64,000 nt of DNA. Source: Sphingomonas sp. LC-1. Lineage in GTDB: Bacteria > Pseudomonadota > Alphaproteobacteria > Sphingomonadales > Sphingomonadaceae. Of the stretch, positions 738 to 24,169 are shown in pieces (the stretch's first letter is position 1; every line of letters starts with the position of its first letter). The notes beneath the pieces were generated by a model. It ran no database searches and had not been told where the DNA came from. It saw only the letters and a program-made list of their open reading frames with translations. The stretch covers positions 1-64,000 of the forward strand of contig NZ_JANZXB010000006.1 of the NCBI RefSeq assembly GCF_025371035.1, in the 5' to 3' direction. The position numbers and the translations under genes are program-made.

Positions 738-1841
738 TCAGATCGCGCGCTCACCCGCCACGCGCAACCCATAGCCCTCCAGCCCGACCAGCGTGTGGCG
801 GCTGTTGGTCAACAGGATCATCTCCTCGACGCCCAATTCATTCAGGATCATCGCGCCCACACCATAGTCGCGCAGCTCCTCCATATCGGGCACCGCTGCA
901 CCGGCACGGGCATGGATCGCCAGCGTCAGGCCATCGGGGCGCGGGCGGTTGATGACCACGACGATCCCGCGTCCCTCCTGGCCAATCGCTTCCATCGACC
1001 GGCGAAGCAGACCGCTGCGCGCACCCGCCTCACCGAACAGGTCGACAAAGGGCGACAGAGCATGCATCCGCACCAGCGTCGGCCGCGTCGGATCGACCTT
1101 CCCCTTGACCAGCGCGACCTGCTCGCTGCCGGTCGCGCGATTCCAAAAGGTCATGGCCCGCCATTGTCCGCCCCATTCGCTGTCGAACACCGTTTCCGCG
1201 CGCTTTTCGACCAGATGATCGTGACGGCGACGATAGGCGATCAGGTCTCGGATCGTCCCGATCTTCAATCCATGGAATTGCGCGAAGGTAACGAGCCGGT
1301 CGAGCCGCGCCATCGTCCCGTCCTCGTCCATGATCTCGCAGATCACGCCGGAGGGATTGAGCCCGGCGAGCCGCGCGACATCGACCGCCGCCTCGGTATG
1401 CCCGGCGCGGACCAACACGCCGCCGTCGCGCGCCACCAGCGGGAAGACGTGACCCGGGCTCACGATCGCGTCCGCGCCCTGGGCCGCGTCGATCGCAACC
1501 GCGATGGTGCGGGCGCGGTCGGCGGCGGAAATGCCGGTGGTCACGCCATCGCGTGCTTCGATCGAGATGGTAAAGGCTGTCTCGTGCCGCGTCCCGTTGG
1601 TGCGCGTCATCAGGTCCAGCCCGAGCTGTTCGACCCGTGCACGCGCCATCGCGAGGCAGATCAGACCGCGCCCATGCCGCGCCATGAAGTTGATGGCATC
1701 GGGGGTGGCCATCTGGGCAGGGACGACCAGATCGCCCTCATTCTCGCGATCCTCATCGTCGACCAGGATGAACATGCGCCCGTTACGCGCTTCGTCGATG
1801 ATCTCCTCGGGGGTGGAAAGAAAGGCGTGGCCGCCGGTCAT
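738..1841 (-). CDS. ribB: 3,4-dihydroxy-2-butanone 4-phosphate synthase with degenerate GTP cyclohydrolase II domain
   Basis: The N-terminal ~200 residues are a RibB domain: the acidic signature DDEDRENEGD, later RAGHTEAAVD and the GVICEIMDEDG motif. It converts ribulose 5-phosphate to the four-carbon precursor of riboflavin. The C-terminal ~165 residues resemble GTP cyclohydrolase II (ending LVGLEGYGLRVA), but the zinc-binding cysteines of active RibA are absent (the equivalent region reads VRMHALSPFVDLFGEAGARS). This is common in alphaproteobacterial RibB proteins, so only the RibB activity is expected. I chose the ATG at 1841 because it overlaps the upstream stop codon as ATGA; an in-frame ATG lies 15 bases further upstream. 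It is the last gene of the ring-cleavage operon, so it may boost flavin supply for the flavin-dependent oxygenase encoded nearby (inference). Confidence 0.85.
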   Translation of the reverse strand: MTGGHAFLSTPEEIIDEARNGRMFILVDDEDRENEGDLVVPAQMATPDAINFMARHGRGLICLAMARARVEQLGLDLMTRTNGTRHETAFTISIEARDGVTTGISAADRARTIAVAIDAAQGADAIVSPGHVFPLVARDGGVLVRAGHTEAAVDVARLAGLNPSGVICEIMDEDGTMARLDRLVTFAQFHGLKIGTIRDLIAYRRRHDHLVEKRAETVFDSEWGGQWRAMTFWNRATGSEQVALVKGKVDPTRPTLVRMHALSPFVDLFGEAGARSGLLRRSMEAIGQEGRGIVVVINRPRPDGLTLAIHARAGAAVPDMEELRDYGVGAMILNELGVEEMILLTNSRHTLVGLEGYGLRVAGERAI

Positions 1842-2776
1842 GCGCGGACCACGCACTGGTCGATGGAGCCGAACAGCGGCCCCGCCCGCATCGTCACCCG
1901 ATCGCCGAAGGACAGGAAAGGCGTACGCGGCGTACCGCCCTCGATCATCTCAATCGCCCGGCGCTCGGACAGGCAAGTGGAGCCGACCCGCGCATGATCG
2001 ACATTCGACACGGTGCCCGAACCGATGATCGTCCCCGCGGGCAGGTCGCGGGTCCGTGCGGCGTGTGCGATCAGTTCGTGGAAGCCATAGGCCATTTCGT
2101 CACCCACCGGATTTCCGAACCACGCACCGTTGATCTCGACCGTCAGCGGCAGGCAGACGCGACCGTCGCGCCAGTCATCGCCAAGTGCCTCGGGCGTGAC
2201 CGCAAACGGCGCGACCGAACAGGCGGGCTTCGCCTGGACCCAGCCGAAGCCGGTCTTCATCTCGATCGGGGCGATCGCGCGCAACGACCAATCGTTGAGC
2301 AGGAGGACCAATCGGACATGGCCAAGCGCCGCCTCCGGTGTGCACCCCATCGGCACATCGCCCGTCACCACCGCGAACTCACCCTCGAAATCAATGCCGT
2401 CGGCCTCGCTGGGGAGCGGCACGTCCTGCGTCGCCGCGAGGAAGCGGTGCGACATGCCCTGATACATCAGCGGCTTGTCGGTCTCGATCGGCGGCAGGTT
2501 GAATGCCTTCTGCATCAACGCGCCGTGCGTCGGGAAGGCCGAGCCGTCGAGCCACTGCCAGGCGCGCGGTAACGGAGCCAGTAACGCGGTCCCGTCCAGC
2601 GCCTCCCCCTCCGCATCGACCCGCCCGGCCAGTGCGCGCAGAGCGGGTTCGACGCGCGTCCAATCGTCCAGCGCCGCCTGCATCGATAGGCCCGTATGCA
2701 GACAGTGGCGGCCGTCGGTCGAGACCACGACCAACGCTCCGTCCCGGCTGCCATCGTCTCGGGTCGCAAGCCGCAT
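1838..2776 (-). CDS. Fumarylacetoacetate hydrolase family protein
   Basis: A 312-residue protein with an N-terminal FAH-associated domain and a C-terminal FAH fold. The metal-site signature DFEGEFAVVTGDV is present, followed by NDWSLRAIAP and a GTIIGSGTVSN segment typical of the family. Family members hydrolyse C-C bonds in beta-diketo acids (fumarylacetoacetate, acylpyruvates) or hydrate 2-oxopent-4-dienoates. In this operon, downstream of an extradiol dioxygenase and an alpha/beta hydrolase, it should act late on an open-chain ring-cleavage product. The start at 2776 lies 5 bases after the cyclase stop; upstream codons in this frame overlap the cyclase gene. Exact substrate cannot be told from sequence. 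Confidence 0.82.
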   Translation of the reverse strand: MRLATRDDGSRDGALVVVSTDGRHCLHTGLSMQAALDDWTRVEPALRALAGRVDAEGEALDGTALLAPLPRAWQWLDGSAFPTHGALMQKAFNLPPIETDKPLMYQGMSHRFLAATQDVPLPSEADGIDFEGEFAVVTGDVPMGCTPEAALGHVRLVLLLNDWSLRAIAPIEMKTGFGWVQAKPACSVAPFAVTPEALGDDWRDGRVCLPLTVEINGAWFGNPVGDEMAYGFHELIAHAARTRDLPAGTIIGSGTVSNVDHARVGSTCLSERRAIEMIEGGTPRTPFLSFGDRVTMRAGPLFGSIDQCVVRA

Positions 2777-2781
2777 CGCGA

Positions 2782-3576
2782 TCAATCCTCGAAGATGGCG
2801 ACGGCGCGGCACCAGCCCGCCGAGCCGCCCTTCACCTTCACCGGCAGGCAGGAGACGGTGAAACCGGTGGACGGAAGCTCGGCCAGCCGGGTCAGCTTTT
2901 CCATGTGGCAATAGCCGATCTCTCGCCCGGCCTTGTGCCCTTCCCAGACCAGCGAATAATCACCGGTCTGGGCAACGCGCGCGGCGGTGTGGCTGAACGG
3001 CGCGTCCCAGCTCCAGGCGTCGGTGCCGGTCACGCGCACACCGCGCTCGGTCAGATACATGGTTGCTTCATAGCCCATGCCGCACCCGCGTCCGAGAAAA
3101 TCGGGCTGGCCCAGCGCCGCGCCTGCGCCGGTGTTGACCAGCACGATGTCGAGCGGTCGTAGCTCGTGGCCGATCCGTGCCAGTTCCGCTTCGACCTCGG
3201 CCGCCGTCACGACATGGCCATCGGGCAGGTGTCGGAAATCGAGTTTCACGCCCGGCTGGACGCACCATTCCAGCGGAACCTCGTCGATGGTGAGCGCACG
3301 CCTGCCGCCATCCGCCAGCGCCTCGTCCATCGTGGGATGGTAATGCCAGGGCGCATCGAGATGCGTGCCGTTATGCGTGCTGAGCGTCAGCATCTCGGAC
3401 GCGGCAAAGCCCTCGCCACCCGCCATCGCCTCGGCGGTGATGCCGGGGAAGAACATCGCGGCCTCCGCCACCGTCTCGCGGTGCGTCTGGCGGGTGATGC
3501 TGGGCCGCATGAAGGGTGGATCAGTGATGACCTCGGGGTCGATCGCGATCGACAGGTCGACGATGCGGCGCGTCAT
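2782..3576 (-). CDS. Cyclase family (kynurenine formamidase-like) metal-dependent hydrolase
   Basis: 264 residues carrying the family signature HNGTHLDAPWHY, which supplies metal ligands (HxGTHxDxPxH). Relatives include kynurenine formamidase, isatin hydrolase and polyketide-associated 'cyclases', which hydrolyse amides, lactams or lactones. There is no signal peptide, so it should be cytosolic. Its start overlaps the stop of the upstream alpha/beta hydrolase by four bases (ATGA), so the two are translationally coupled. In this pathway a lactone or enol-lactone hydrolysis role is plausible, but this is inference from position. Confidence 0.75.
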   Translation of the reverse strand: MTRRIVDLSIAIDPEVITDPPFMRPSITRQTHRETVAEAAMFFPGITAEAMAGGEGFAASEMLTLSTHNGTHLDAPWHYHPTMDEALADGGRRALTIDEVPLEWCVQPGVKLDFRHLPDGHVVTAAEVEAELARIGHELRPLDIVLVNTGAGAALGQPDFLGRGCGMGYEATMYLTERGVRVTGTDAWSWDAPFSHTAARVAQTGDYSLVWEGHKAGREIGYCHMEKLTRLAELPSTGFTVSCLPVKVKGGSAGWCRAVAIFED

Positions 3577-4730
3577 GCCGTGTGCCCTCCCAATGTCTCG
3601 GCGAACCAGTCGGAAATCAGGTCGCGGCCATAGGCCATGTTGTCAGCTCCGACATGCTCGACACCGCCTTCACGCGCCGTGAAGACGACCTTCTCGCGGC
3701 GGGGCGAATTCACCAGCTGATCGTAAAGGTCGTCGGCATATTGCACGCTGATCTGGCGGTCGTTTGCGCCGTGGGTGACGAGGAACGGCACCTTGATCCG
3801 ATCCATATGGCCGTTGAGGTTCATCGCCTCCGACTTGGCGAGAAAATCTTCCTGATCCTTGGCGCCAAACGCCCAGTGGACATGCGCCCAGTAATGCGGA
3901 ACGGGGTTTTCGCCCTCGCGCGCCATGCGCCTGTCCTGCACCTCGCGCCAATTGTGGTTCGCCCCCCACACCGCGCCGCTGGCGAAGCGGGGCTCATAGG
4001 CGACCGCGCGGGGGGCGAAGTGTCCGCCCAGCGAAATGCCGGTCATGCCGATCCGCTTGGGATCGACATCGGGCTGCCGTTCCAGCCAATCGACCGCCGC
4101 GCTGGCCCAGTTTTCGCTATGTGGGTCGACCGGGAGGTCCTGAAGCCGCAATGCCTCGCCGGAGCCTGGCTGGTCGAGGCACAGGGTCGAAATGCCGCGC
4201 CGCGCCAGTTCCTGCGGTAGCCGCGTCCAGTAGAGCAATTCCTTGCAGCTATCGAGACCGTTGCAGAACACGACCACGGGCTTGCGGCCGTCACCGGACG
4301 CGCGGGTATAGAGCGCGGGCATGGTACCGACCGTCAACGGGATTTCCACACGCTGCCGGTTGAGTTGACCCAACACCGTAGAACGATCGAAGGCATTGCG
4401 CGCCCGTGCAAAGGTTTCGCGGCGGCCCGGATGGCCATGGCCCTGCATTCGCTCGGCGGTGATGAGGTACAGGCTGGCCCGCTCCAGCTTGTTGGAGGCG
4501 GAGAAGCCCCGCCCCTTCGCCTCATCTTCGGCCGCAAGCGCGATCAGCTTGTCGCCCATCGCGGCCCAGGCCTTCATGAACATCGGCGTGCCGGCGTCCG
4601 CGCCGCTGGCCGCCGCGTCCTTGATCGGCTGGCACATGTCGATGATCTCGCCGAGCTGCGCGCCCGACTCCATCGCGATCGCGACCGACAGATTCCAGAT
4701 ATAGTTGGGAAAGGGTTCGTAGAGCGCCAT
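3573..4730 (-). CDS. Alpha/beta hydrolase of the Ayg1 / 2,6-dihydroxypseudooxynicotine hydrolase type
   Basis: 385 residues. The first ~135 form a helical N-terminal domain before the alpha/beta-hydrolase core begins. The nucleophile elbow is GISLGG, the oxyanion region reads VVVFCNGLDSCKE, a late acid lies in VTHGANDRQIS, and the terminal histidine is probably in GGVEHVGADN. This long-N-terminus architecture matches enzymes that cleave C-C bonds next to a carbonyl on an aromatic ring (nicotine-pathway 2,6-dihydroxypseudooxynicotine hydrolase; fungal Ayg1). It is not the compact BphD/MhpC type usual in meta-cleavage operons. I therefore suggest retro-Claisen cleavage of an acyl-aromatic or diketone. 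The start at 4730 follows the dioxygenase stop by 5 bases. Confidence 0.72.
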   Translation of the reverse strand: MALYEPFPNYIWNLSVAIAMESGAQLGEIIDMCQPIKDAAASGADAGTPMFMKAWAAMGDKLIALAAEDEAKGRGFSASNKLERASLYLITAERMQGHGHPGRRETFARARNAFDRSTVLGQLNRQRVEIPLTVGTMPALYTRASGDGRKPVVVFCNGLDSCKELLYWTRLPQELARRGISTLCLDQPGSGEALRLQDLPVDPHSENWASAAVDWLERQPDVDPKRIGMTGISLGGHFAPRAVAYEPRFASGAVWGANHNWREVQDRRMAREGENPVPHYWAHVHWAFGAKDQEDFLAKSEAMNLNGHMDRIKVPFLVTHGANDRQISVQYADDLYDQLVNSPRREKVVFTAREGGVEHVGADNMAYGRDLISDWFAETLGGHTA

Positions 4731-4735
4731 CGGGC

Positions 4736-5638
4736 CTACACCAAGACCGGCTGGAACAGCCCGGCATCGGGCTTGGGATGCGGCATGGTCTGCGGACCGC
4801 CGACACCGATGCCCCATTGGTCCATCGTGCCGGGGCCGGGGACATGCACCTGATGCTCGTGGGTCTCGAAATCGACATGCTCCAGCTCGGAGGTATATTC
4901 GACCGCGAAACCGTTGGGCGTCGTGAAATAGCTGAAGGTATTGTTGCCCGCCGTATGGCGACCCGGCCCCCAGCGAATGTCCGTCCCCGCCTGCTTCAGG
5001 CGCCGGATGCCCGCCATCATGTCGTCGACTGTCAGCATGTCATAGGCGACATGATTGAGGCAGGGCGGCCCCGGCAGGATCGCGAGACGATGATGGGCCG
5101 AGTTGCAGCGCAGGAAGCACATGAAATCGCCCAGCCAATCCGATACGCGGAAGCCCAGCACGTCGGTGAAGAAGGCCACCATCGCCCGGTGATCGGGCGA
5201 GTGGAGCACGATATGGCTGATCTTCTGCGGAATGCCTTCCCAGCGGCTGAGCACACGTGGTGTGCGGCGCTCGACATCCGACGAAATCTCGAAGGGCAGA
5301 CCGTCGGGCGAGAAGAAGCGGAAGCCATAGCCACCGCCCATCGTCGTCAGGTCGCGCGGGGCGAAGATGATCCGGCAACCCGCGTCCACGACCTTGTCAT
5401 GCAACGCATCGACATCGGCGCGGGTGTCGGCGGCCAGCGCGATGACGTCGATACGGTTAGCATCATCCTGCCGCAGGCGAACGACATAGGCCTCGTCATG
5501 CCCTTCGGCGGCGAAGTGATACAGGCCGTCCTGCTCGCCCGCCTCCACCAGTTTCCAGTCGTCGCGATAAAAGGCGCGCTCGGCATCAAGGTCGGCGACG
5601 CCGTAGCCGACGTAACGGATCTCGGTCACTCTTGCCAT
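4736..5638 (-). CDS. Extradiol ring-cleavage dioxygenase (type I, VOC superfamily)
   Basis: 300 residues, two vicinal-oxygen-chelate domains, the length of 2,3-dihydroxybiphenyl 1,2-dioxygenase. The catalytic C-terminal domain keeps the Fe(II) ligand pattern: His142 (KISHIVLHS), His196 (CLNHVAYDM) and Glu247 (FAVEYTSE). It should open a catechol-type ring next to the hydroxyls with O2. It lies directly after a TonB receptor and before three hydrolases, the classic order for meta-cleavage of an imported aromatic. The aromatic substrate is unknown; from the surrounding genes it is probably the (hydroxylated) aglycone of a C- or O-glucoside. The region after residue 255 (HEHQVHVPGPGTMDQW) is a common tail in this branch. 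Confidence 0.85.
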   Translation of the reverse strand: MARVTEIRYVGYGVADLDAERAFYRDDWKLVEAGEQDGLYHFAAEGHDEAYVVRLRQDDANRIDVIALAADTRADVDALHDKVVDAGCRIIFAPRDLTTMGGGYGFRFFSPDGLPFEISSDVERRTPRVLSRWEGIPQKISHIVLHSPDHRAMVAFFTDVLGFRVSDWLGDFMCFLRCNSAHHRLAILPGPPCLNHVAYDMLTVDDMMAGIRRLKQAGTDIRWGPGRHTAGNNTFSYFTTPNGFAVEYTSELEHVDFETHEHQVHVPGPGTMDQWGIGVGGPQTMPHPKPDAGLFQPVLV

Positions 5639-5701
5639 GTCATGCTCCAGGGGTGAGGCATTCCCCGGCGGTGGCCACCCGCCCCGCCGGGGAAAGGGTC
5701 G

Positions 5702-8020
5702 TCAGAAGCGGAATGAGCCCTGCACGCCGTAGGTGCGCGGCTGGCCGAAATTCCAGTTGTAGATGTTGATGCCGCCGCCGGTGAACCCGGCATAGGTCTT
5801 CACCCGATTGTCCTCCAGATTGCGGACATAGCCCTGGATGCTGAACCGGTTGTTCGGCATGTTGAGTTCCAGGCTGAGATCGGTGGTGGTGAACGCGTCC
5901 ACTTCGTCGCCCTTGTAGTTGAAGGCGGTGAGGAAGTAGCGCGACTTGAACCGGCTGAAGCCGTTGGCGACCAGCTTGTAGCCGTCACCCAGCTCGATCG
6001 TCTTGGTATAGTTGATACCGATCGTCCATTTCGGGGCCTGCGGGGCGACATTGCCCGCCAGATCCAGCGTCAGGCGCGCGACAGTGGACGCCGGGTTGGC
6101 CAGCGTGGGCGCCGGAATGCCAGCGAACTGCTGCAACCGTGCATCGATATAGTTGACGATCAGGCTGACCCGGTCGTTCGGCGACAGGCGAACGGCGGTG
6201 TCGGTTTCGATACCCCAGACCCGGCTCTTGCCCGCGTTGAAGGTGCGCGCGCCGACCGTGGTGTCGATATACACCTGAACCTGCTGGTCCTTATAGTCGT
6301 AATAGAAGGCGCTGGCGTTGAATTCGAGCTGGTTGCCCATGAAGCGGTTCTTCGAGCCGATCTCATAGGCGGTCAGATTTTCCGCATTGAACGACCCGAC
6401 CAGATCAAAGCCGCCGCTTTTGTATCCGGTGCTGACCTTCGCGTAGAGCAGGTTGTCGCGGGCGGGCTTGTATTCGACACCCGCCGTCCAGGTGATCTTG
6501 TCTTCCTTATAGGTCGGATAGCGGATCAACGCCCCCGCCCCGCTGCCGTCGGCGGGCGGCCGTGCCATGGTCGGCGAGCGATAGAAGCCGTAATTGATGT
6601 ACTTCGCGTCCTTCTTGTCATCCGTATAGCGAATGCCGCCGGTGAAGCTCAGCGTGTCGGGCACGACCCAATAGGTCGCCTGGGCAAAGGCCGACTTGGA
6701 GTCCGAGGTGACGTAGGGGCGATAGAAGAAATTGGCGAAGGCACTTGCCGTAGTCAAATAAAGACCACGCGCGATGATCTGGTTTTCGTGGAAATAGAAG
6801 CCACCGACCTGCCAGACAAACTGGCCCTGCGTACCGCCGTTCAGACGGACCTCATGGCTCTGCGTGCGCGTGTCGTAGCGGTCGTTATAGAAAGTGAACA
6901 GCTCCGGCAGATAGCCGTTTTGCGGGATGACGGCCTGGTTGTCGACATGCCGGTAACCGCCGATGTAGCTGAGCGTCGCACCGCCGAAATCATAGGAGAT
7001 GCGACCGCGCACCGCATATTGCTGGCTCTTGAAGCTGCCCATCCGGCCGAGGGGGAAGTTGGCGGGATCGAAGCCCTGCGGCACGTCCACGAACGACGGG
7101 ACCTGACGCTGGGCCAGCGTGGGATAGGTCGTGGGCGAGGCCACGGACGCAGGCAGTTCCGTTACCCCGGGGGTCGTCCCGCTGACGGGCAGCCCATATT
7201 GCATCGGCCCGGTCTGGTCGATGTCGACATATTCGCCCGCGAGATAGACCTCGAGCGCACCGGGAGCGAACAATATGCTGCCGCGAACCGCATCGACATT
7301 GGCATCGTCGCCGCGCCCCGCCGGGCCGTTGTTGACATAGCCGTCATGCTGATTGTGCAGCCCGGCCACGCGGATCGCCAGCTTGTCACCGATCGGCACA
7401 TTGACCGCGCCCGTCGCGTAGATCGCGTTGTAATTGCCATAGCCCGCCGTCGCCGAGCCCTCGAAGCTCTGGAGCACCGGCTTGGCCGCGACGATGTTGA
7501 GCGCACCCGCCGTCGAGTTGCGACCGAACAGCGTCCCCTGCGGCCCGCGCAGGACTTCGATCCGTTCCAGGTCGAAGAAGTTGGCGTTCAGGCCGACCGG
7601 GCGATTGATATACTCGCCGTCGATCGAAACGGTCAGCGCCGGATCGGCGCTTTCCGAAATATCCTGGCTGGATACGCCCCGGATCGCGATCTTCGTGAAG
7701 ACCGAGTCCGGAGTGATGCCCAGATCCGGGGCGAGACGCTGAAGCCCGCTGACGTCGGTCACCTGCGCCTTGGTCAGGTCTGCACCACCGATCGCGCGGA
7801 TGGCGATCGGCGTATCCTGCAACCGGGTTTCGACCTTGGTCGCGGTGACGATGATGTCTTCGGAATTCATCGTATCGTAGGACGCCGCCGTCGTCGTCTT
7901 GTTGGCCGACGTCTGGGGCGTGGCACCCGCCGGATCGGCGACCTGGGCAAAGGCCGGGTTGGCCACCCACATGGCGGTGGTGGTGAGCGCCGTGGTTGCG
8001 ACGCGACGGAACCTCATCAT
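5702..8020 (-). CDS. TonB-dependent outer-membrane receptor of the aromatic/C-glycoside locus
   Basis: 772 residues with a signal peptide (cleavage near PAFA-Q, residue ~25), a TonB-box-like stretch (EDIIVTATK, residues ~54-62), a plug domain (IEVLRGPQGTLFGRNSTAGA) and a beta-barrel ending in GSFRF, the aromatic C-terminus used for outer-membrane insertion. It is first in an operon with the ring-cleavage dioxygenase and downstream hydrolases, so it most likely imports the aromatic glycoside or a related phenolic. It has its own promoter overlapped by the AGAAT-N4-GTTCT repeat. ATG 8020 and ATG 8017 are both possible; a GGAGAGGGG ribosome site precedes them. Confidence 0.9.
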   Translation of the reverse strand: MMRFRRVATTALTTTAMWVANPAFAQVADPAGATPQTSANKTTTAASYDTMNSEDIIVTATKVETRLQDTPIAIRAIGGADLTKAQVTDVSGLQRLAPDLGITPDSVFTKIAIRGVSSQDISESADPALTVSIDGEYINRPVGLNANFFDLERIEVLRGPQGTLFGRNSTAGALNIVAAKPVLQSFEGSATAGYGNYNAIYATGAVNVPIGDKLAIRVAGLHNQHDGYVNNGPAGRGDDANVDAVRGSILFAPGALEVYLAGEYVDIDQTGPMQYGLPVSGTTPGVTELPASVASPTTYPTLAQRQVPSFVDVPQGFDPANFPLGRMGSFKSQQYAVRGRISYDFGGATLSYIGGYRHVDNQAVIPQNGYLPELFTFYNDRYDTRTQSHEVRLNGGTQGQFVWQVGGFYFHENQIIARGLYLTTASAFANFFYRPYVTSDSKSAFAQATYWVVPDTLSFTGGIRYTDDKKDAKYINYGFYRSPTMARPPADGSGAGALIRYPTYKEDKITWTAGVEYKPARDNLLYAKVSTGYKSGGFDLVGSFNAENLTAYEIGSKNRFMGNQLEFNASAFYYDYKDQQVQVYIDTTVGARTFNAGKSRVWGIETDTAVRLSPNDRVSLIVNYIDARLQQFAGIPAPTLANPASTVARLTLDLAGNVAPQAPKWTIGINYTKTIELGDGYKLVANGFSRFKSRYFLTAFNYKGDEVDAFTTTDLSLELNMPNNRFSIQGYVRNLEDNRVKTYAGFTGGGINIYNWNFGQPRTYGVQGSFRF

Positions 8021-8069
8021 ACGATCCCCTCTCCTTTGATCGGAGGCGTACCCGCCTCTCGTTTAGAAC

Positions 8070-8085
8070 TAGAATGATTGTTCTG
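8070..8085. promoter_or_regulatory. Putative TetR operator (copy A) before the TonB receptor operon
   Basis: TAGAATGATTGTTCTG. It shares the invariant AGAAT-N4-GTTCT core with three other sites at 12689, 13440 and 18596. It overlaps the predicted -10 element of the minus-strand promoter, a position suited to repression. Binding by the TetR protein encoded at 12742 is inferred. Confidence 0.65.
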
Positions 8086-8102: not shown

Positions 8103-8143
8103 GCGCTGATATACAGCCCCGCCCGATTATTTTGCGCGGTCGT

Positions 8144-12612: not shown

Positions 12613-12688
12613 CAAACCTCTCCCTTTTTATCATGCCCGCCGTGGTCCGGCGCGTTGCCGCATTGATGCGGTTCGTCTAAAATAAAAT

Positions 12689-12731: not shown

Positions 12732-12741
12732 TGGGGTGTTG

Positions 12742-13455: not shown

Positions 13456-13501
13456 ATTATAGCCGCTGGCAAAAGCGGCGTAGGCGAGGATGAGGCACGG
13501 C

Positions 13502-15828: not shown

Positions 15829-15841
15829 ACGACACATAAGA

Positions 15842-16273: not shown

Positions 16274-16285
16274 CGGTCAAGTCCT

Positions 16286-17290: not shown

Positions 17291-17321
17291 GTCATATCGT
17301 CCTGAATGGTAGGAATGGGGA

Positions 17322-18554
17322 TCAGACAGCGGCGGCAATGGCCGGCGTACCGCCGCCACGACGGGCTGACGCGATAAGGAAGGCCGTGACCGCGCCGACG
17401 ACCCCGGCGGCACCCATGATCAGGAATGCCGCCTGCATCGTCCCCGCCTGGGTTCGGAACATCGAGACCAGGAACGGGCTGGAGAACTGGCCGAAGAAGA
17501 AACACGCGGTCCACACGCCCATGCCGCGACCGCGATGCTCGAAGGGCAGCTTGGACTGCGCCCATGCGATTAGGGTCGGCACCGCCATGCCCGCACCGGT
17601 CTGCTGCACCACCAGGCCCGCAATCATCCAGCGCCAGTCCGGCGCCAGACCGATCGTCGCCAACCCACCGCCGATCAACGACAGGAAGATGCCGAGTTGC
17701 ACCACCGGGCGTGCCCGACCCGTCACCCAAAAGATCGCAGAGCCCAGCATCACGAACAGGCTGGGAATGAAGGTCAGCTTGCTGAGGTCCTGCGACGACT
17801 GGATACCGACTTCGCGGAACGCCATGCCGCCATTGATGATGAAGACATAGTAGAGGGCAGAGGCGAACAGGGTCACGCCGCCGATCATGGCGACCGACGC
17901 CATCGGGAACGGCGTACGCGCGGGCGCCTGACCGATGCCCAGCATCTTGCGCGCCGTCGCATCGCTCTGCGGCTCGTAGAGAAACTTCACCGCCGCGATG
18001 AAGATCGGGAAGGCGACCAGATAGATCAGGAAGATGCCGTTCCAGCGCAGGCCGGTCAGGAAGCCCGAAGCCAAAATAACCCCGCTGGCCAGGAACGGCC
18101 CAGCCAGCCCCTGCATGGTCAGCCAGTTGCGCCGCCCCTTCTCGTCCCAATAATCCCCGATCAGCGTGTTGAGCGTGGTCAGGATCACCGCCTCCGACAC
18201 GCCCAGCAACAGCCGCGAGGCGTAGATGCCGTTCAGACTGTCGAGGAAAAAGGGTGCCGCGCCGAACAGCGCGTAGAGCAGGGTCGCGGCCAGCATCAAT
18301 TTGCGCCGTCCGAAGCGATCGACGAGAATTCCTGCGAACAGCGCGACCACAGCAATCGTCAGGCCTGGCGCCGATACCATGGCGGGCACCTTCCACGACG
18401 CGGACGGGTCGGCCGAGAAATGGTCGATGATGGACGGCACCGCCGGAAACAGCGACGCGATGGCCAGAATCGGCAAAAAGCCGGCGGTGATGACGGTGAT
18501 ACCCTGACCTATACCGGGTCGGCGTGCCTCGGGGTCTTCCGGCGTCATGACCAT
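17322..18554 (-). CDS. MFS transporter, probable importer of the oxidised glycoside
   Basis: 410 residues with about 12 hydrophobic segments. The loop between TM2 and TM3 carries the MFS signature (DRFGRRKL), and LLLGVSEAVILTTLNTLIGDYWDEKGRRNW is typical of MFS TM4-loop sequences. It is the first gene of the operon with the deglycosidase subunits, so the cargo is likely the (3-keto-)C-glycoside made in the periplasm (inference). I chose ATG 18554, preceded by GGGAGAGA; a TTG at 18569 is the alternative. Operator copy D lies just upstream. Confidence 0.8.
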   Translation of the reverse strand: MVMTPEDPEARRPGIGQGITVITAGFLPILAIASLFPAVPSIIDHFSADPSASWKVPAMVSAPGLTIAVVALFAGILVDRFGRRKLMLAATLLYALFGAAPFFLDSLNGIYASRLLLGVSEAVILTTLNTLIGDYWDEKGRRNWLTMQGLAGPFLASGVILASGFLTGLRWNGIFLIYLVAFPIFIAAVKFLYEPQSDATARKMLGIGQAPARTPFPMASVAMIGGVTLFASALYYVFIINGGMAFREVGIQSSQDLSKLTFIPSLFVMLGSAIFWVTGRARPVVQLGIFLSLIGGGLATIGLAPDWRWMIAGLVVQQTGAGMAVPTLIAWAQSKLPFEHRGRGMGVWTACFFFGQFSSPFLVSMFRTQAGTMQAAFLIMGAAGVVGAVTAFLIASARRGGGTPAIAAAV

Positions 18555-18595
18555 CGGCTTCTCTCCCAATCGATTCGCCGCTCTTACGGCTTAAT

Positions 18596-18611
18596 TAGAA
18601 CTTGCATTCTG
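18596..18611. promoter_or_regulatory. Putative TetR operator (copy D) between two divergent transporter genes
   Basis: TAGAACTTGCATTCTG; the minus strand reads AGAAT-GCAA-GTTCT. It shares the flank TATCAGAAT...AGTTCTAATT with copy B. It lies 42 bases before the MFS/deglycosidase operon and 50 bases before the DHA2 transporter, so it can control both. A perfect TTGACA on the minus strand (18647-18642) lies upstream, but I cannot place a convincing -10 at normal spacing. Confidence 0.65.
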
Positions 18612-18661
18612 ATACGTGGTATCGCCATGACGTGCCACTCTGTCAAGCAAGGATCATCACG

Positions 18662-20074
18662 GTGGCGACACGCGCGGTTTCGGATCGGTTGAGCGAGCGA
18701 CAAAGGACGCTGGCGTTCGCGACGGTGCTGCTCGCCTTCGTCATGGACGTGGCGGATTCGACGATCGTCAACACCGCACTGCCCGCAATCCAGCAGGGAT
18801 TGGGGGCGTCGGACCGCGCGATGCAATGGGTCGTGTCGGGCTATTTCCTGACCTTCGCCGTGCTGCTGGTCGTGGGCGGTCGGTTGGGTGATCTGTTCGG
18901 CTATGCGCGGATGTTCGCAATCGGGGTGGCGGGTTTTTCCATCGCGTCGCTGGGGTGCGGACTGGCGCAGGATGCGACGACGCTTGCCGTCGCGCGGCTG
19001 TCGCAGGGAGCGGCCGCCGCGATCATGGCACCGCAGGGCGTGGCGCTGATCCAGCTTTTATATTCACCCAGCGAACGGATCGGCCGACTGGCCGCCTTTG
19101 GCGTGGTCGGCGGGCTGGCAGCGATCGGCGGCCCGGTGCTTGGCGGCTTGTTGATTGAGCTCAACCCGTTCGATCTGGGCTGGCGCAGTGTCTTCCTGAT
19201 CAATCTGCCCTTCGGCGCACTGGCGCTGATTGCCGGGCTGACGTTGCTGCCACCGGGACGCTCGGGCCATGCGCTGCGTGTCGACGGGCCGGGATCGCTG
19301 TTGCTGTTCCTCGCGCTCGGCACGCTGCTGCTCCCCCTGATCGAGGGGCGGAGCGCCGGGTGGCCGTGGTGGACGGCGGCATTGGTCCTGACGAGTGCTG
19401 GCCTATGGTGGTGGTTCTGGCGTTATGAAGGCGCACGCCGGTCCCGACTGGGGTCGGCGCTGATCGAACCGTCGCTGTTCCATGACCGCAGTTTTCGGGT
19501 CGGACTGGCCTCAACGGGAGCCTTCGCGATCGCCTCGGGCGGCTTCCTGCTGACCTTCAGCCTGACGCTGCAACAGGGGCTGGGCTACAGCCCGGTCGAT
19601 GTCGCGCTGCTCCACATACCCTTTGGCATGGGGGTCATGGCGGGCATCAGTCAGATCGGGCGCAAGGCCCTGCCCGTCCATGGACGTCGTGTGCCGATAA
19701 CGGGAGCGATCCTGATGGCGCTCGCCTGTTCGGCGACCGGGGTCGCCGTGCACATCGCCCTTCCGAGCGTGGTCATCGGCGCGTTGCTGCTATTTGCGGG
19801 TGTCGGCATGGGGACACTCAGCGGTCCACTGGGGCCGATCACCCTGTCACGCGTCGATCGCAACCATGCGGGTGTCGCGGGAGCCATGCACAAGACGATG
19901 CAACAGATCGGCGGCGCCATGGGCACGGCCCTGATCGCCACCATCTATTTCTCGATGACGGGCGATCATCGGCCGCCCGTAACCGCCTTCCTGATCGCGA
20001 CATTGGTGGTGGCGGCGGATCTGCTGGCCATCGCTTTGCTGCTGACCCGCCTGCCGGAGCGACTATTCGATTGA
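18662..20074 (+). CDS. DHA2-type MFS efflux transporter
   Basis: 470 residues with about 14 predicted membrane segments. Motif A-like GGRLGDLFGYARMF and the drug/H+ antiporter-2 pattern (VANTALPAI-like sequence DSTIVNTALPAIQQGLG near the N-terminus) place it in the EmrB/QacA group. It probably exports the phenolic aglycone, a toxic intermediate or unrelated compounds. It is divergent from the deglycosidase operon and shares operator D. I chose GTG 18662, preceded by AAGGA at 8-9 bases; earlier starts would run into the operator. Confidence 0.78.
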   Translation: MATRAVSDRLSERQRTLAFATVLLAFVMDVADSTIVNTALPAIQQGLGASDRAMQWVVSGYFLTFAVLLVVGGRLGDLFGYARMFAIGVAGFSIASLGCGLAQDATTLAVARLSQGAAAAIMAPQGVALIQLLYSPSERIGRLAAFGVVGGLAAIGGPVLGGLLIELNPFDLGWRSVFLINLPFGALALIAGLTLLPPGRSGHALRVDGPGSLLLFLALGTLLLPLIEGRSAGWPWWTAALVLTSAGLWWWFWRYEGARRSRLGSALIEPSLFHDRSFRVGLASTGAFAIASGGFLLTFSLTLQQGLGYSPVDVALLHIPFGMGVMAGISQIGRKALPVHGRRVPITGAILMALACSATGVAVHIALPSVVIGALLLFAGVGMGTLSGPLGPITLSRVDRNHAGVAGAMHKTMQQIGGAMGTALIATIYFSMTGDHRPPVTAFLIATLVVAADLLAIALLLTRLPERLFD

Positions 20075-20099
20075 GGGGGGCAGTTGCGCCCTCCCCTCA
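20072..20099. terminator. Hairpin spanning two convergent stop codons
   Basis: TGAGGGG (20072-20078) pairs with CCCCTCA (20093-20099). The left arm begins with the stop codon of the DHA2 gene and the right arm contains the stop of the isomerase gene on the other strand. There is no long T run, so termination strength is uncertain. Confidence 0.5.
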
Positions 20100-21020
20100 G
20101 TCGTAGATGGGCCGCAATTCCTTATCGATGTGGTATCGTGTCAGGGCCATCGACGCGAGAAGGTCCGGCGACCCGTCATATTCGACCGACATCCAGCCCT
20201 TGAACTGATATTTCTTCAACAGGTGATACAGGCCCTTCAGGTCCAACTCACCCAGGCCGGGCTCCCAGAACCAGCGTGTGCCGTCATCGGTGATCTCCGG
20301 GTCCTGAGCATAGCGGACTTCATCGGGCTGGCGGACCGAGGCCGTATCCTTCAGGTGGAAGGTGCTGATCCGGTCGTGATAATCCTCGTAGAAGGTCAGC
20401 AGATCCTCGCCCATGATCGCGACCTGCGCCGTGTCGATGCAATAGTGAACCAGCTCAGGATCGGTGCTTTCGATGAACTCGCGGTGGTTCGGCAGATTGA
20501 TCGCGCAGAAGAACTCGTTGTGAAGACCGATCTTGACGCCGTGGTCGGTCGCATAGCGCCCGATCTCGTTGATCGTCCGGGCACATTGCTGAACCTGTTC
20601 GCGCGACAGCGGACCCGACCCGTAATAGTTGTTGGTCGGACAGGTGTTCATATAGGTGCCGCCGAACTTCACGATCGTGTCCACGGCCTCCCGTCCCGAG
20701 CGCACCGCTTCCTCGAAATGATCGGCGGCATGCGAGGCATGGGCGCCGTGGAACATCCCGATCACATCGACGCCGCGATCCTTCGCGAACGCGGTGAATG
20801 CCTCGGGCGAGCCGAACAGGGGCAGGATGTCGGCGAGGTCCCAGGGCGCGATCTCGATACCGTCAAAGCCGAGCGCCGACTGGTATTTCAGGATCGTGTC
20901 CCAGTCGGAATAATAGGCGGAGTTCGTATTGTTCTCGTAATAGAAATCGCGGAAGTTCTCGATCTGCCGATAGGGGATCGCCTTCCAATGGCTCATATTG
21001 GCGTAGCGGATATTGGGCAT
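20097..21020 (-). CDS. Sugar phosphate isomerase/epimerase-family TIM-barrel enzyme
   Basis: 307 residues. A complete metal site of the AP-endonuclease-2/xylose-isomerase-like fold is visible: Glu169 (GLHNEF), Asp196 (CIDTAQ), His222 (TFHLKDT) and Glu280 (MSVEYDG). It has no signal peptide. It ends a four-gene operon with two related proteins and a GPH symporter. In 3-keto-sugar catabolism enzymes of this superfamily act as lyases, isomerases or hydratases, so it may process the sugar released from the glycoside (inference). Its ATG at 21020 overlaps the upstream stop as TGATG; a GTG three bases earlier is also possible. Confidence 0.75.
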   Translation of the reverse strand: MPNIRYANMSHWKAIPYRQIENFRDFYYENNTNSAYYSDWDTILKYQSALGFDGIEIAPWDLADILPLFGSPEAFTAFAKDRGVDVIGMFHGAHASHAADHFEEAVRSGREAVDTIVKFGGTYMNTCPTNNYYGSGPLSREQVQQCARTINEIGRYATDHGVKIGLHNEFFCAINLPNHREFIESTDPELVHYCIDTAQVAIMGEDLLTFYEDYHDRISTFHLKDTASVRQPDEVRYAQDPEITDDGTRWFWEPGLGELDLKGLYHLLKKYQFKGWMSVEYDGSPDLLASMALTRYHIDKELRPIYD

Positions 21021-21997
21021 CACAGGGCACTCCGTCCGGCCTGGTTCGGCAGTTGGTTGAGGAAGGCACGAGTGCGCAGAAGAGCGCGGAACGGATCGCG
21101 TGTCTGGCGGGCGCTGCAGACGACCGGTCCGTCATAGCCCAGATCATCCAGTAGCTGGACGATACGCGACAGATCGACCGATCCGGTTCCGGGATCGCGG
21201 AACACCTGTGTGGCCCGCCCGGCCGGGAATTCGGGGTTCGGGCTCTTCCATGTCTCGTCCGTATCGAGGAAATCGGTATCGGTGAGGTGCACGCAGCCGA
21301 TCCGGCCGATATGCGCGCTGATGAACGCGGCGGGCGAAACGCCCGCGATCGTCAAGGTCGCGGTATCGACGTCGAGCGTGACGCTTTCGGGCAGGGCGTC
21401 GAGCAGCGGAAGGATGCGCTCGCCCCGGAAAAGGCTCCAATATTCGTTACGCAGCACCAGGGTGACGCCCACCTCCTGCGCCTTGGCGGCAAGGCCCTGA
21501 AGCAGTTCGGTCACGCGCGCGACGATGTCATCCATCTTCGCGTCCAGATCGGGGTGATAATGCGCCATCCGCCCGTAAAAGGCGGACGGGCTGATCGCAA
21601 AATAATCGGCACCGAGGTCGGCGGCATGGGAAAGCGCCTCGCCCGCGAAATGGCCGCTGGCCCCGAAGAAGAAGCCCATATTGTCATTGCGCATGAACAG
21701 ATTGGGATCGAAGGTAACGCCGACGACCCGGTCGATGCCGCTTTGGCGCAACACGTCCCGGTAATTGGCGGCGCTTTGATATTTTGTGTTGATGCAATAG
21801 CGGTTCATCGGAACGCCGCTGCGGCCGCCAAATTGCCAGACCGGCTCATAGGGGATCTCGATCGCGCGAAACCCGCTCGCACTGATCAGCGGATACAGCT
21901 CCTCCCAGAAATATTTGCCTTCATACCGGTTTCGGTTGGGTTCCTGATAATGGCGATTGATCAGATCCAGGCTTATGCCGATCGTATCTTTGTTCAT
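21020..21997 (-). CDS. Sugar isomerase-like TIM-barrel protein with altered metal site
   Basis: 325 residues of the same superfamily as its neighbours. Glu185 (VLRNEYWSLF), Asp211 (TLDVDTAT) and His237 (CVHLTDTD) match metal ligands, but the last ligand, normally Glu on strand 8, is missing: the equivalent segment reads VVCSARQTRD. It may therefore have a different activity or act as a partner subunit. The start at ATG 21997 is chosen from the conserved first strand (IGISLDLINRHYQ); ATG 22009 is an alternative. It overlaps the next gene by 1-4 bases. Confidence 0.68.
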   Translation of the reverse strand: MNKDTIGISLDLINRHYQEPNRNRYEGKYFWEELYPLISASGFRAIEIPYEPVWQFGGRSGVPMNRYCINTKYQSAANYRDVLRQSGIDRVVGVTFDPNLFMRNDNMGFFFGASGHFAGEALSHAADLGADYFAISPSAFYGRMAHYHPDLDAKMDDIVARVTELLQGLAAKAQEVGVTLVLRNEYWSLFRGERILPLLDALPESVTLDVDTATLTIAGVSPAAFISAHIGRIGCVHLTDTDFLDTDETWKSPNPEFPAGRATQVFRDPGTGSVDLSRIVQLLDDLGYDGPVVCSARQTRDPFRALLRTRAFLNQLPNQAGRSAL

Positions 21998-22053
21998 GTC
22001 GGTTTCCATCGTTTTCACGGATGCGTCGCCGCGCGACACCCGGATTGGTATGA

Positions 22054-23355
22054 CTAACGCTTGGCCGGTCCCGTCCGGGGCCAGCAGAGAACGACGAGCG
22101 TCTGGACGGCGAGCACCGCCACCGCGCCGCCGCTATAGGTCCAGCGGATGGCCTCCCGCGCGGCGTCGCTGACATGGCCGGGGGCATAGTCGAATGCGCC
22201 CAGCACATAGGCGAAGCCAGCCGTGCCCAGCGCCATGCCGAGCTTCGTCGAAAGACTGATGCCTGCGGATAACAGCCCCTCGCGACGGGCGCCGAACTTC
22301 GCCTCGTGGTAATTTACGGTTTCCGCGATCATCGCATAGGTCGAGGTGATCGTGATCGAGGTCGCCAGGCAGCCCGCGACGTAGAAGCCCAGAAATACCG
22401 GCACATTGTCCTGAACGAAGGGCAACGCTCCGAACAGCACTGCCGCGATGGCGAGCGCGCCGGCCGTGCCGTTCCGCAGGCCGGTGCGCGTCAGGATCGC
22501 GGGCGCGAAGAAGGCGGACAGGAGCAGCATACCCGCGACGGCGGGCAGCATGACCGAGATCATCCATGGCCGCTTCATGACGTCGATGGCGAAATAGGCG
22601 GTGGCGGCCATCATCATGCCGAAGCGCGCGAAATAGAGCAGGCAATGGAAGAAGACGACCAGCCAGGCACGGTTGCGCAACATCTCGCCGACCGCGGAAA
22701 GAATGGCGAAGCCCGGCGGGGCATCATCCTCGTACCGCTCCTTGCAGTTGCGGAAGAGCGCCAGCGTGCAGATCAGCCCGACGATCGCGAACAGCACGGC
22801 AACGAGCGTGAACCCTCGCTGCTGGTTTCCTCCGCCCAGCAAACCGACCAATGGCATGACCGCCGCCGTTCCCAGCACGACGCCGGTCGCGGTGCCGATC
22901 GAACGCAGGCCCGACAGCCGCAGCCGCTCCTTGCCGTCCAGCGTCATCATCGGCATCAACGCGGTATAGGGGATCGCCTGAAGCGACATGACGATACCCA
23001 GCGCCTTGAAGGTGACGAAGGCGTAGACGAGTTGCGCGCCCTGGCTCCATGCAGGCATCGAGAAGACGGCAACGGTCAACAGCGCATAGGGAATGGCCGT
23101 GCACAGGAAATAGACGCGGGTACGCCCCCAGCGGGTGCGGGTCTTATCGACCCCGATGCCGACCAGCACATCGACCACGGCGTCCAATATCCGCGCGACC
23201 AGAAATACCGTGCCGACCGACGCCGCGGGCAAGCCCACGACATTGGTGTAATAGAACAGCAGGAAACCGCTGGCCATATTATAGGCCAGACTGGTTCCCA
23301 TGTCGCCAAAGCCGTAACTCAGGCGCTCGACAAAGCCCAATTCGCTTTTTTGCAT
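22054..23355 (-). CDS. GPH-family (glycoside-pentoside-hexuronide:cation) symporter
   Basis: 433 residues, about 12 membrane segments, with MelB-like features: ERLSYGFGDMGTSLAYNM at the N-terminus, RILDAVVDVLVGIGVDKTRTRWGRTR (the conserved acidic/basic TM2-loop), and TYAMIAETVNYHEAKFGARREGL in the second half. These transporters couple sugar or glycoside import to Na+ or H+. In this operon it probably imports the sugar moiety or an oxidised glycoside. ATG 23355 follows the isomerase stop by 40 bases. Confidence 0.82.
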   Translation of the reverse strand: MQKSELGFVERLSYGFGDMGTSLAYNMASGFLLFYYTNVVGLPAASVGTVFLVARILDAVVDVLVGIGVDKTRTRWGRTRVYFLCTAIPYALLTVAVFSMPAWSQGAQLVYAFVTFKALGIVMSLQAIPYTALMPMMTLDGKERLRLSGLRSIGTATGVVLGTAAVMPLVGLLGGGNQQRGFTLVAVLFAIVGLICTLALFRNCKERYEDDAPPGFAILSAVGEMLRNRAWLVVFFHCLLYFARFGMMMAATAYFAIDVMKRPWMISVMLPAVAGMLLLSAFFAPAILTRTGLRNGTAGALAIAAVLFGALPFVQDNVPVFLGFYVAGCLATSITITSTYAMIAETVNYHEAKFGARREGLLSAGISLSTKLGMALGTAGFAYVLGAFDYAPGHVSDAAREAIRWTYSGGAVAVLAVQTLVVLCWPRTGPAKR

Positions 23356-23395
23356 GACGATGACCCGTTCAGGACTGGGAAGCAGCGGATGCGGG

Positions 23396-24169
23396 TCAGT
23401 CGGCCAGCGCTTCTTGCGAAACGGCCAGCGATTGCACCATGGGCAGCGTCGGAAAATATTCGAGACCGATGGCGCCGGTATAGCCAAGATCACGCAAGGT
23501 CTGCGTGACCTCCTTCCAGTCGACAGCGCCGGTCCCCGGCTCGTTGCGGTCGGGCATATCGGCGACCTGCACATGGGCGACCAGATCAATACGCCCGGTG
23601 AGTACCGTGCGCATGTCCTCACCCATCACGGCACTGTGCCAGACATCGTACAGGAGACGCAGGTTCGGGCTGCCCACCGCCTCGACCAGGTCGAGGCCGA
23701 GCGTGGTGCTGACCAGATACATGGTCGCGAAAAGCCGGGTGTTGAGCGGCTCGAGCAGGAGCATGACGCCCGCCTCCTCCGCCGCATCGGCCGCGGCGCG
23801 CAAGGCGGCCACGGCATTGTCGAAATGCTCTTGCTCGCTCATGCCCTCCACCCGGAAACCCGAGGCGACGATCAGGGCGGGCTTGCCGAGCTTGGCGGTG
23901 GCGGCGATGGTTTCGCGAACGGCGGTGACCATCTCCTCACGCTCAGCGGGATCGACGATCGAGCGGCGCGGATCGACGCACAGGCTGGTCAGCCGCATTC
24001 CCGTGTCCGAGAGCGCCACCGCGAGCGCGTCGATGGGCTTGTCACGCCAAAGGTGAAATTCGGCCAATTCCAACCCGGCCGCCTTGGCCGCGCGAAGACG
24101 CGCATCCAGCGCTCCAGCTTCGGCGAACTGCCATTCAATGCATGACGATAGCGAATAGACCGCAGACAT
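23396..24169 (-). CDS. Hydroxypyruvate isomerase-like sugar isomerase/epimerase
   Basis: 257 residues, compact TIM barrel. Metal ligands are likely Glu in LLLEPLNTRLF, Asp in LLYDVWHSAVM, His in AHVQVADMPDRNEPGTG and Glu in IGLEYFP, the Hyi/OtnI-type pattern. It is first in the operon with the GPH symporter and two other TIM-barrel enzymes. ATG 24169 is preceded by an excellent ribosome site (GGAGAGGGTCC). No copy of the AGAAT-N4-GTTCT repeat is seen upstream, only a half-site-like ATTCTA near 24184, so regulation may differ from the main cluster. Confidence 0.78.
   Translation of the reverse strand: MSAVYSLSSCIEWQFAEAGALDARLRAAKAAGLELAEFHLWRDKPIDALAVALSDTGMRLTSLCVDPRRSIVDPAEREEMVTAVRETIAATAKLGKPALIVASGFRVEGMSEQEHFDNAVAALRAAADAAEEAGVMLLLEPLNTRLFATMYLVSTTLGLDLVEAVGSPNLRLLYDVWHSAVMGEDMRTVLTGRIDLVAHVQVADMPDRNEPGTGAVDWKEVTQTLRDLGYTGAIGLEYFPTLPMVQSLAVSQEALAD

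Follow-up and report, generated by a model that had tools for sequence, protein, structure and literature searches.

A Sphingomonas locus probably serving flavonoid C-glucoside catabolism, with a luciferase-like monooxygenase as candidate A-ring hydroxylase

C-glycosyl flavones are common plant compounds, and their sugar is held to the flavonoid by an almost unbreakable carbon-carbon bond. Could one bacterial locus encode the uptake of such a compound, the cleavage of this bond and the opening of the aromatic ring? This question is raised by positions 738 to 24301 of a stretch of DNA from Sphingomonas sp. LC-1, here called the window, which comprises bases 1-64000 of contig 45 in a source genome of 4.15 Mb and 48 contigs. 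A first-pass annotation of this DNA had proposed a complete locus for the utilisation of an aromatic C-glucoside, joining a C-glycoside deglycosidase (CGD) to ring cleavage. We picked open reading frames (ORFs) by codon-position GC and scanned their products against Pfam and NCBIfam. The Pfam scans recovered every gene class that had been named, roughly where it had been placed, and RibBA, a SnoaL-like protein, a cyclase (Cyc), a fumarylacetoacetate hydrolase family protein (FAAH), another two transporters of the MFS type and another three TIM-barrel proteins came in addition to that list. As argued below, the locus quite probably serves the catabolism of flavonoid C-glucosides, with a luciferase-like monooxygenase (LLM) and an FMN reductase (FMNr) replacing the A-ring hydroxylase. 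The most likely substrates are flavones with the glucose at C6, for example isovitexin and isoorientin, a preference taken over from the nearest solved relative of the deglycosidase.

The identity of the deglycosidase is strongly supported by family membership and by active-site residues. The product of the gene at 15899-16273 (minus strand), which had been put down as a small DUF6379-like protein to be checked by a profile search, matches PF19906 (CGDB, formerly DUF6379; 'C-glycoside deglycosidase beta subunit') with 122.8 bits (E 7.6e-36), the curated cut-off being 27.6. The outcome that was to refute the proposal, a small protein unlike DUF6379, thus did not come about. Its best solved relatives are the DUF6379 chains 8qvc_B (E 4.8e-28) and 8umc_B, followed by DgpB1, DfgB, DgpB and AgCarC2. 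The adjoining gene at 16286-17290 (minus strand), only 12 bp away, encodes the TIM-barrel partner that had been predicted with it, a putative CGD alpha subunit and metal-dependent C-C lyase, which aligns with 8qvc_A across residues 3-325 (E 7.6e-106) and, at a greater distance, with 7bvr, 7bvs and 7dnm, of the PuCGD, EuCGD and AgCGD2 kinds. We take 8qvc to be an enzyme of Deinococcus aerius, from a gene cluster that reportedly prefers 6-C-glucosyl flavones. Aligned to 8qvc and 7bvr, the alpha subunit displays the motifs E142-V-H144, D174, H258-G-K260 and E294-Y-E296. The metal ligands of AgCGD2 are given as E147, D179, H269, K271 and E305, and its catalytic residues as H149 and E307 (Mori and co-workers, PMC8563793); all metal and catalytic residues that this paper names for AgCGD2 and PuCGD are present in CGD alpha. 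Its identity is 96% to the protein of S. paucimobilis NBRC 13935 and 97% to that of an uncultured Sphingomonas, named relatives that place the source genome in this genus. With the known alpha-beta enzymes (DgpBC/PuCGD, DfgAB/EuCGD, CarBC/AgCGD2 and PurBC) the pair has in common the PF19906 beta subunit, the TIM-barrel alpha subunit, the residues and the adjacency of the genes, and it differs in belonging to a sphingomonad branch known here from sequence. The PF19906 family has a single copy in the source genome, where no second CGD beta was found, and is present in none of 14 control genomes.

For the oxidation that would precede this cleavage, the candidates are a flavoprotein of the GMC family (14056-15828, plus strand; PF05199, PF00732) and a Gluconate_2-dh3 small subunit (13490-14131, plus strand; PF13618 E 1.4e-21), whose N-terminus, judged by eye, resembles a Tat signal with the twin-arginine motif RRELL followed by a hydrophobic stretch. 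This is the make-up of GlycDH-type enzymes, in which a GMC catalytic subunit is combined with a Tat-signal small subunit. GlycDH of Rhizobium is co-expressed with a 'TAT-pathway signal protein', and puerarin, nothofagin, orientin, vitexin and isovitexin are among the compounds that it oxidises at C3 (PMC10628242). Because of the Tat-like small subunit and the likeness to this characterised pair, there are good grounds to infer that the C-glucoside would be oxidised at its 3-OH in the periplasm. The likeness to the GlycDH of Rhizobium sp. GIN611 and Agrobacterium is one of make-up, a flavoenzyme dehydrogenase with a Tat-signal partner; at the Agrobacterium locus two sugar-phosphate-isomerase-type genes adjoin, and GlycDH is paired with the O-glycoside eliminase AtOGE (PMC10628242), whereas in the window the dehydrogenase is paired with a CGD. 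The nearest solved structures of the GMC protein are fructose dehydrogenase (E 8e-45) and a glucose dehydrogenase, while chains of the POx/CGOx type reach merely E 1e-12 (7qf8) and 2.8e-10 (8qve). Since the solved POx/CGOx chains are this distant, an oxidase of that type (PurA, CarA, PsG3Ox) was rejected as the first enzyme. The PurABC and CarABC systems of the soil bacteria Paenarthrobacter and Microbacterium likewise combine FAD-dependent 3-oxidation with a subsequent CGD step, but they begin with such an oxidase, and the abstract and discussion of the account describing them do not mention ring-cleavage genes (PMC12724307).

The fate of the aglycone is suggested by four genes on the minus strand. 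EXD (4736-5638; PF00903 E 8.5e-25, PDB 3b59 E 3.2e-147) is a type I (VOC) extradiol dioxygenase, whose residues H142, H146, H196 and E247 are invariant in 79 of 79 relatives and probably include the metal ligands. ABH (3573-4817) is an alpha/beta hydrolase and possibly a C-C hydrolase, with 2,6-dihydroxypseudooxynicotine hydrolase (2jbw, E 2.9e-14) as its best solved relative. Cyc (2782-3576; PF04199 E 1.8e-37) is a cyclase or arylformamidase-like hydrolase, and FAAH (1838-2911; PF01557 E 4.1e-32) would probably act late in ring degradation. To see the company that EXD keeps elsewhere, 20 EXD stretches were fetched from family genomes lacking a CGDB match; their ORFs were clustered, by which EXD itself was missed in two stretches, and nine cluster representatives were scanned with Pfam. 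Recurring neighbours were an FAD_binding_3 monooxygenase (here called c0), LysR, cupin, glutathione S-transferase (GST), TonB receptor, metallo-beta-lactamase-fold, DUF2218 and SDR proteins. By tblastn c0 was found in all 20 stretches and ABH and LysR in 19 each; the counts were lower for FAAH (18), cupin (12) and Cyc (6). From its Pfam match and gene context, c0 would be a hydroxylase of the FdeE/IfcA type. The ifc cluster of Variovorax contains the FAD monooxygenase IfcA, which 8-hydroxylates isoflavones, the 'glyoxalase' IfcB (65.8% identical to FdeC), cupins and an alpha/beta hydrolase resembling 2,6-dihydropseudooxynicotine hydrolase (PMC11069340). Since the EXD gene set resembles this cluster and the best solved relative of ABH is that very hydrolase, we consider EXD, ABH, Cyc and FAAH, by analogy in gene content and neighbourhood, to be probably a flavonoid A-ring cleavage module. 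Likened in this way, the window shares with fde of Herbaspirillum and ifc of Variovorax the glyoxalase-type dioxygenase and the hydrolase, and the related sphingomonad loci share with them also the FAD monooxygenase and, in the 12 stretches noted, the cupin; the window differs in that it has no FdeE/IfcA-like hydroxylase but LLM and FMN reductase in its place, and in that C-deglycosylation is added. Neither Herbaspirillum nor Variovorax is among the matches listed (30 of 32 records) of a plasmid search. In five genomes (G426, G429, G320, G348 and G349) EXD is just 67-69% identical to that of the window, yet ABH and LLM are 86-96% identical, and in these loci an exchange seems to have been confined to the dioxygenase gene.

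What, then, would hydroxylate the A-ring? LLM (11509-12615, minus strand; PF00296 E 2.5e-37) lies 4 bp from the gene for the NAD(P)H:FMN reductase (10938-11504, minus strand; PF03358 E 7.5e-25), the arrangement of a two-component flavin monooxygenase. Among 101 EXD matches of at least 65% identity, 79 loci were examined with their surroundings, using identity thresholds of 50% for c0 and 60% for LLM. Within 10 kb of EXD, c0 was present at 59 loci, LLM at 17, both at none and neither at 3 (Fisher p 1.4e-14, kinship ignored). In two of the last three, G382 and G397, LLM lies 16 kb from EXD, and c0 relatives reach only 40% genome-wide in the former and 66-73% on other contigs in the latter; the third, G036, has c0 elsewhere, in two pieces. 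The 22 matches outside this set came from the family sample (12) and the genus (10). For the genus matches, coordinates place c0 within 10 kb in nine and LLM in none, and for the remaining one, G576, there is just a c0 relative of 41% identity at a distance of 18 kb. At E 1e-60, c0 was found in 46 of the 60 EXD-positive genus genomes, and the other 14 all carry LLM, at most 7 kb from EXD. Conversely, all 26 EXD-positive genomes without LLM match c0, although G512, G532 and G576 do so at just 41-45%. When 11 genomes were searched at E 1e-10, a c0 relative was absent from the window genome, G433, G301, G057 and G112; the other six matched, three of them (G387, G371 and G419) at an identity of only 27-44% that covered part or most of the protein. 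The window genome was thus searched for a hidden FdeE-like enzyme at E 1e-60 and again at E 1e-10 with a Sphingomonas sp. R1 query, and none was found. On the maximum-likelihood EXD tree the LLM label changes five times, three changes being forced by well-supported branches, against a mean of 15.7 for shuffled labels, so the LLM-EXD pairing seems to have arisen more than once. One change depends on G564c, a contig of 4 kb that could not have shown LLM, from a metagenome-assembled genome with 7% contamination, and the genome G563 is 84% complete. Independent pairs on supported branches follow the prediction in a mean of 3.0 of 3. Because LLM and the FdeE/IfcA-like gene exclude each other, the simplest reading is that LLM and FMN reductase take over the hydroxylation that c0 would perform elsewhere.

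The tie between C-deglycosylation and ring cleavage that had been proposed is borne out across genomes. In a genus sample of 295 genomes, CGD alpha (any clade, E 1e-20) was found in 36, EXD (E 1e-80) in 60 and LLM (E 1e-80) in 34. EXD is present in 35 of the 36 CGD alpha-positive genomes versus 25 of the 259 negative ones (Fisher p 5e-28, kinship ignored), and the lone CGD genome without it, G337, has a weak CGD match. All 34 LLM genomes have EXD and 32 have CGD. In a family sample of 298 genomes, where EXD at E 1e-30 lets in some distant relatives, CGDB was found in 17, EXD in 53 and both in 16, giving EXD in 16/17 CGDB genomes versus 37/281 others. At closer range, 29 genus CGD alpha matches (at least 69% identity over most of the length) have LLM within 20 kb in 26 cases and EXD in 14; for both CGD clades together, EXD lies within 20 kb of 21 of 49 matches, lower or partial matches (G559:C54, G493:C1:15186, G499:C6:19255 and G337) having been left out. 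The second CGD alpha clade, 44-45% identical to that of the window, is found 2.5 kb from EXD at G313:C39, G395:C1 near 1.25 Mb, G556:C19 and G438:C27, and at these loci c0 lies about 1 kb from EXD. Since this clade adjoins EXD and c0, C-deglycosylation and A-ring cleavage may have been joined more than once. We also searched 88 stretches with the window proteins (32 from the sampled genomes and 56 named loci, partly of the same genomes). In several genera CGD again has LLM, FMN reductase, GH3, GMC, small subunit and TetR as neighbours; many stretches are without some of these genes, and the ring-cleavage genes occur in a minority. The locus is more than a chance assembly, because the beta subunit scores above its cut-off, is the sole copy in its genome and is absent from the controls, and because the genes recur together in relatives.

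The most complete counterpart lies outside the Pseudomonadota, on plasmid pDAETH-1 of Deinococcus aetherius (L234, 2581-21454). As in the window, one stretch holds TetR (43% identity), LLM (62%), FMN reductase (58%), GH3 (49%), CGD alpha (52%) and beta (45%), cyclase (43%), FAAH (30% over 57% of the length) and ABH (56%). It differs in having sugar ABC-transporter genes instead of the TonB receptor and MFS proteins, a GMC protein unmatched by that of the window, a VOC enzyme distantly matching EXD (25% over half of its length) and, beyond the set above, a c0-like monooxygenase. With such a matching set in this plasmid, the joined pathway is not peculiar to sphingomonads. By its title, a published deglycosylation gene cluster of Deinococcus aerius is said to act on C-glucosyl flavonoids and xanthonoids. 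The first-pass annotation knew of no described locus of this kind; given this cluster and the D. aetherius plasmid, with its matching functions and ring-cleavage-type genes, that statement goes too far. In Pelomonas and Ideonella, CGD is accompanied by cyclase, FAAH and c0 (40-42%; truncated in Ideonella, where the locus ends), and LLM is missing from the roughly 21 kb of these loci. In Paracoccus the companions of CGD are LLM, FMN reductase, GH3, cyclase and FAAH, and in the Pseudooceanicola locus, which is shorter, they are LLM, FMN reductase and GH3. At the thresholds used, EXD was found in none of these four. On pNL2 of Novosphingobium aromaticivorans, a model strain with a sequenced genome (L233, 19989-26772), two CGD alpha-beta pairs face each other, with DUF1080 and a GMC oxidoreductase of another kind than that of the window, and 41 kb of this plasmid gave no EXD match. 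In Sphingobium sp. TomTYG65 a CGD alpha relative (43%) lies about 10 kb from EXD, and an annotated beta-glucosidase, a cyclase and an alpha/beta hydrolase are found between them.

Put together, these genes outline the following route. The glycoside would enter the periplasm through a TonB-dependent receptor (5702-8020, minus strand; PF00593 E 9.4e-33, PF07715 E 8.3e-13; signal-peptide-like N-terminus by eye), a probable outer-membrane uptake protein. There, by analogy with the GlycDH pair, the Tat-exported GMC/small-subunit dehydrogenase would oxidise the glucose 3-OH, and the keto-glycoside would be imported by an MFS transporter (17322-18569, minus strand; PF07690 E 1.4e-30), possibly an inner-membrane importer. 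CGD alpha-beta would then eliminate the aglycone, yielding flavone and 2-hydroxy-3-keto-glucal, the step for which support is strong. The sugar piece might be hydrated or isomerised by the IolE-like TIM barrels TIM2 (20097-21023, minus strand; PF01261 E 6.1e-28) and TIM3 (21020-22039, minus strand, divergent; PF01261 E 1.8e-12). Among solved structures TIM2 matches IolE (3cny, E 1.2e-13) and the hydratase 8ro4 at just E 1.6e-4, and TIM3 has weak IolE matches; TIM2 is possibly a 2-hydroxy-3-keto-glucal hydratase, a role for either protein that these weak matches can only hint at. Next, FMN reductase and LLM would hydroxylate the A-ring beside an existing hydroxyl, in place of an FdeE/IfcA-type hydroxylase. 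Their flavin may come from a RibBA-type DHBP synthase/GTP cyclohydrolase II (738-1856, minus strand; PF00926 E 1.2e-82, PF00925 E 9.2e-32), which is a guess; RibBA is found, at 85-96% identity, in fetched stretches of five relatives (G564, G521, G538, G433 and G320). EXD would open the A-ring, and ABH, Cyc and FAAH would degrade the product in an fde/ifc-like manner. A GH3 glycosidase with a PA14 domain (8593-10941, minus strand; PF00933, PF01915, PF07691; no signal peptide seen by eye) may, at a guess, remove the outer O-linked sugar of C,O-diglycosides. The roles of GH3 and TIM2 to TIM4 and the directions of transport are weak or guessed assignments.

Several observations weigh against this scheme. 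A c0 relative is present somewhere in 20 of the 34 LLM-positive genus genomes; G505 and G313 have LLM 13.3 kb and 21.1 kb from EXD together with an adjacent c0; and the D. aetherius plasmid holds its c0 relative (46%) and LLM in one locus, so the two need not be interchangeable everywhere, and a clean one-to-one swap across all taxa is not upheld. The independent pairs, three in number and too few to reach significance, give a sign test p of 0.25. Disruption of the ifc alpha/beta hydrolase gene in Variovorax left daidzein degradation unaffected (PMC11069340), which makes the role of ABH uncertain. No 3-keto-glucose reductase was recognised among the locus proteins in the Pfam and NCBIfam scans, and no CXXCH motif of a c-type cytochrome occurs in the 24 proteins from AraC to PhoX, and 'complete' was therefore too strong a word for the locus. 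EXD, finally, is not within 20 kb of 15 of the 29 CGD orthologue matches.

Some of these points fit other explanations. The locus might handle C-glucosides while LLM and FMN reductase act elsewhere, for instance on the ring-opened product or the glycone, and an unrecognised hydroxylase serves the A-ring. The LLM superfamily is chemically varied, and the coexistence of LLM with c0 in D. aetherius and in those 20 genomes would fit this; yet five genomes, that of the window included, have no c0 relative at E 1e-10, none of the 79 loci has both within 10 kb, and the EXD tree records repeated switches, which makes this account unlikely, if the most serious of the alternatives. A true substrate other than a flavonoid, such as a xanthone (mangiferin), an anthrone or a chromone, with related ring cleavage, is less likely again: the xanthonoids in the title of the D. 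aerius report would suit it, but EXD, ABH and FAAH sit in gene sets resembling the ifc and fde flavonoid clusters. We see little reason to think that the locus is mainly for O-glucosides, with 3-keto-O-glucosides eliminated by CGD or other TIM barrels, GH3 as an alternative and C-glucosides as minor substrates. GlycDH does oxidise O-glucosides broadly (PMC10628242) and GH3 is part of the locus, but it is CGDB-type alpha-beta enzymes with these residues that are known to cleave C-C bonds (PMC8563793), and AtOGE is described as having no sequence similarity to CGDs (PMC10628242). That deglycosidase and ring-cleavage genes are neighbours by chance, with unrelated substrates, would agree with their separation in the 15 matches above; it is very improbable in view of the genome-level co-occurrence of CGD and EXD and of the cyclase and FAAH genes that accompany CGD in Pelomonas, Ideonella, Paracoccus and Deinococcus. 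Flavonoid C-glucoside catabolism with LLM on the A-ring is thus the reading that we prefer.

The locus consists, by our count, of six blocks, and its tight spacing and strand changes fit the five operons counted earlier. RibBA-FAAH-Cyc-ABH-EXD-TonB receptor (minus) is followed by SnoaL-GH3-FMN reductase-LLM (minus), TetR-small subunit-GMC (plus), CGD beta-CGD alpha-MFS (minus), a lone EmrB-like transporter (plus) and TIM2-TIM3-MFS_2-TIM4 (minus). Within blocks, ORFs overlap or are at most 31 bp apart, with two wider gaps, at the TonB receptor (63 bp) and after TetR (79 bp). Start codons probably lie downstream of the longest ORF for FAAH, ABH (of 4817), GMC (of 14056), MFS_2 (of 23622) and TIM4. 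The TetR-family regulator (12736-13410, plus strand; PF00440 E 5.4e-11) is divergent from LLM. With an AraC-type gene also present and six blocks, control by one regulator is not borne out; the AraC-type ORF (131-721) adjoins RibBA, and its Pfam match is limited to the C-terminal helix-turn-helix, possibly reflecting a fragment or a wrong start. The gene for the SnoaL-like protein (8144-8596, minus strand; PF12680 E 2e-14; signal-peptide-like N-terminus by eye) overlaps GH3 by 4 bp, and its product possibly has a periplasmic role. The remaining genes encode a DHA2/EmrB-like MFS transporter (18602-20074, plus strand; PF07690 E 1.2e-40, TIGR00711 E 9.4e-56, under that model's cut-off), a member of the MFS_2 sugar symporter family (22054-23622, minus strand; PF13347 E 1.7e-79) and TIM4, a hydroxypyruvate-isomerase-like TIM barrel (23396-24301, minus strand; PF01261 E 7e-39). 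Further along the window, at 44199-49019, genes for a TonB receptor, an MFS_2 sugar symporter and a TauD-type dioxygenase are consecutive and may form another uptake and catabolic unit.

Each of the three building blocks, CGDs, GlycDH-type dehydrogenases and A-ring clusters for flavonoids, was known before. To our knowledge, luciferase-like monooxygenases have not been a known class in flavonoid catabolism. Among the titles and beginnings of abstracts listed, in a search that most subscription journals lay outside of, we found neither a sphingomonad C-glycoside locus nor a luciferase-like flavonoid hydroxylase. According to the 2025 account of PurABC, no soil bacterium before its strain had been shown to catabolise a C-glycosylated flavonoid (PMC12724307). 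The widest form of our reading, put forward tentatively and in our judgement slightly more apt to fail than to hold, is that a two-component, FMN-dependent LLM hydroxylates the flavonoid A-ring and has repeatedly taken the place of the FdeE/IfcA flavoprotein hydroxylase, to which it is unrelated. It would do so as part of a self-contained route for C-glucosides, from uptake and periplasmic 3-oxidation to the C-C lyase and ring cleavage, whose outline Alphaproteobacteria and Deinococcota share. Little is known of the mineralisation of C-glycosyl flavones outside the gut, and this locus connects uptake with the opening of the ring. The strains concerned are relatives of leaf isolates that can be cultured, which makes the whole route testable by gene deletion. 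The D. aetherius locus, with both monooxygenase types, offers a natural comparison for the order of the pathway. If LLM and FMN reductase are indeed the A-ring hydroxylase, they would represent a new enzyme class in flavonoid catabolism, with a possible use in making hydroxyflavonoids.

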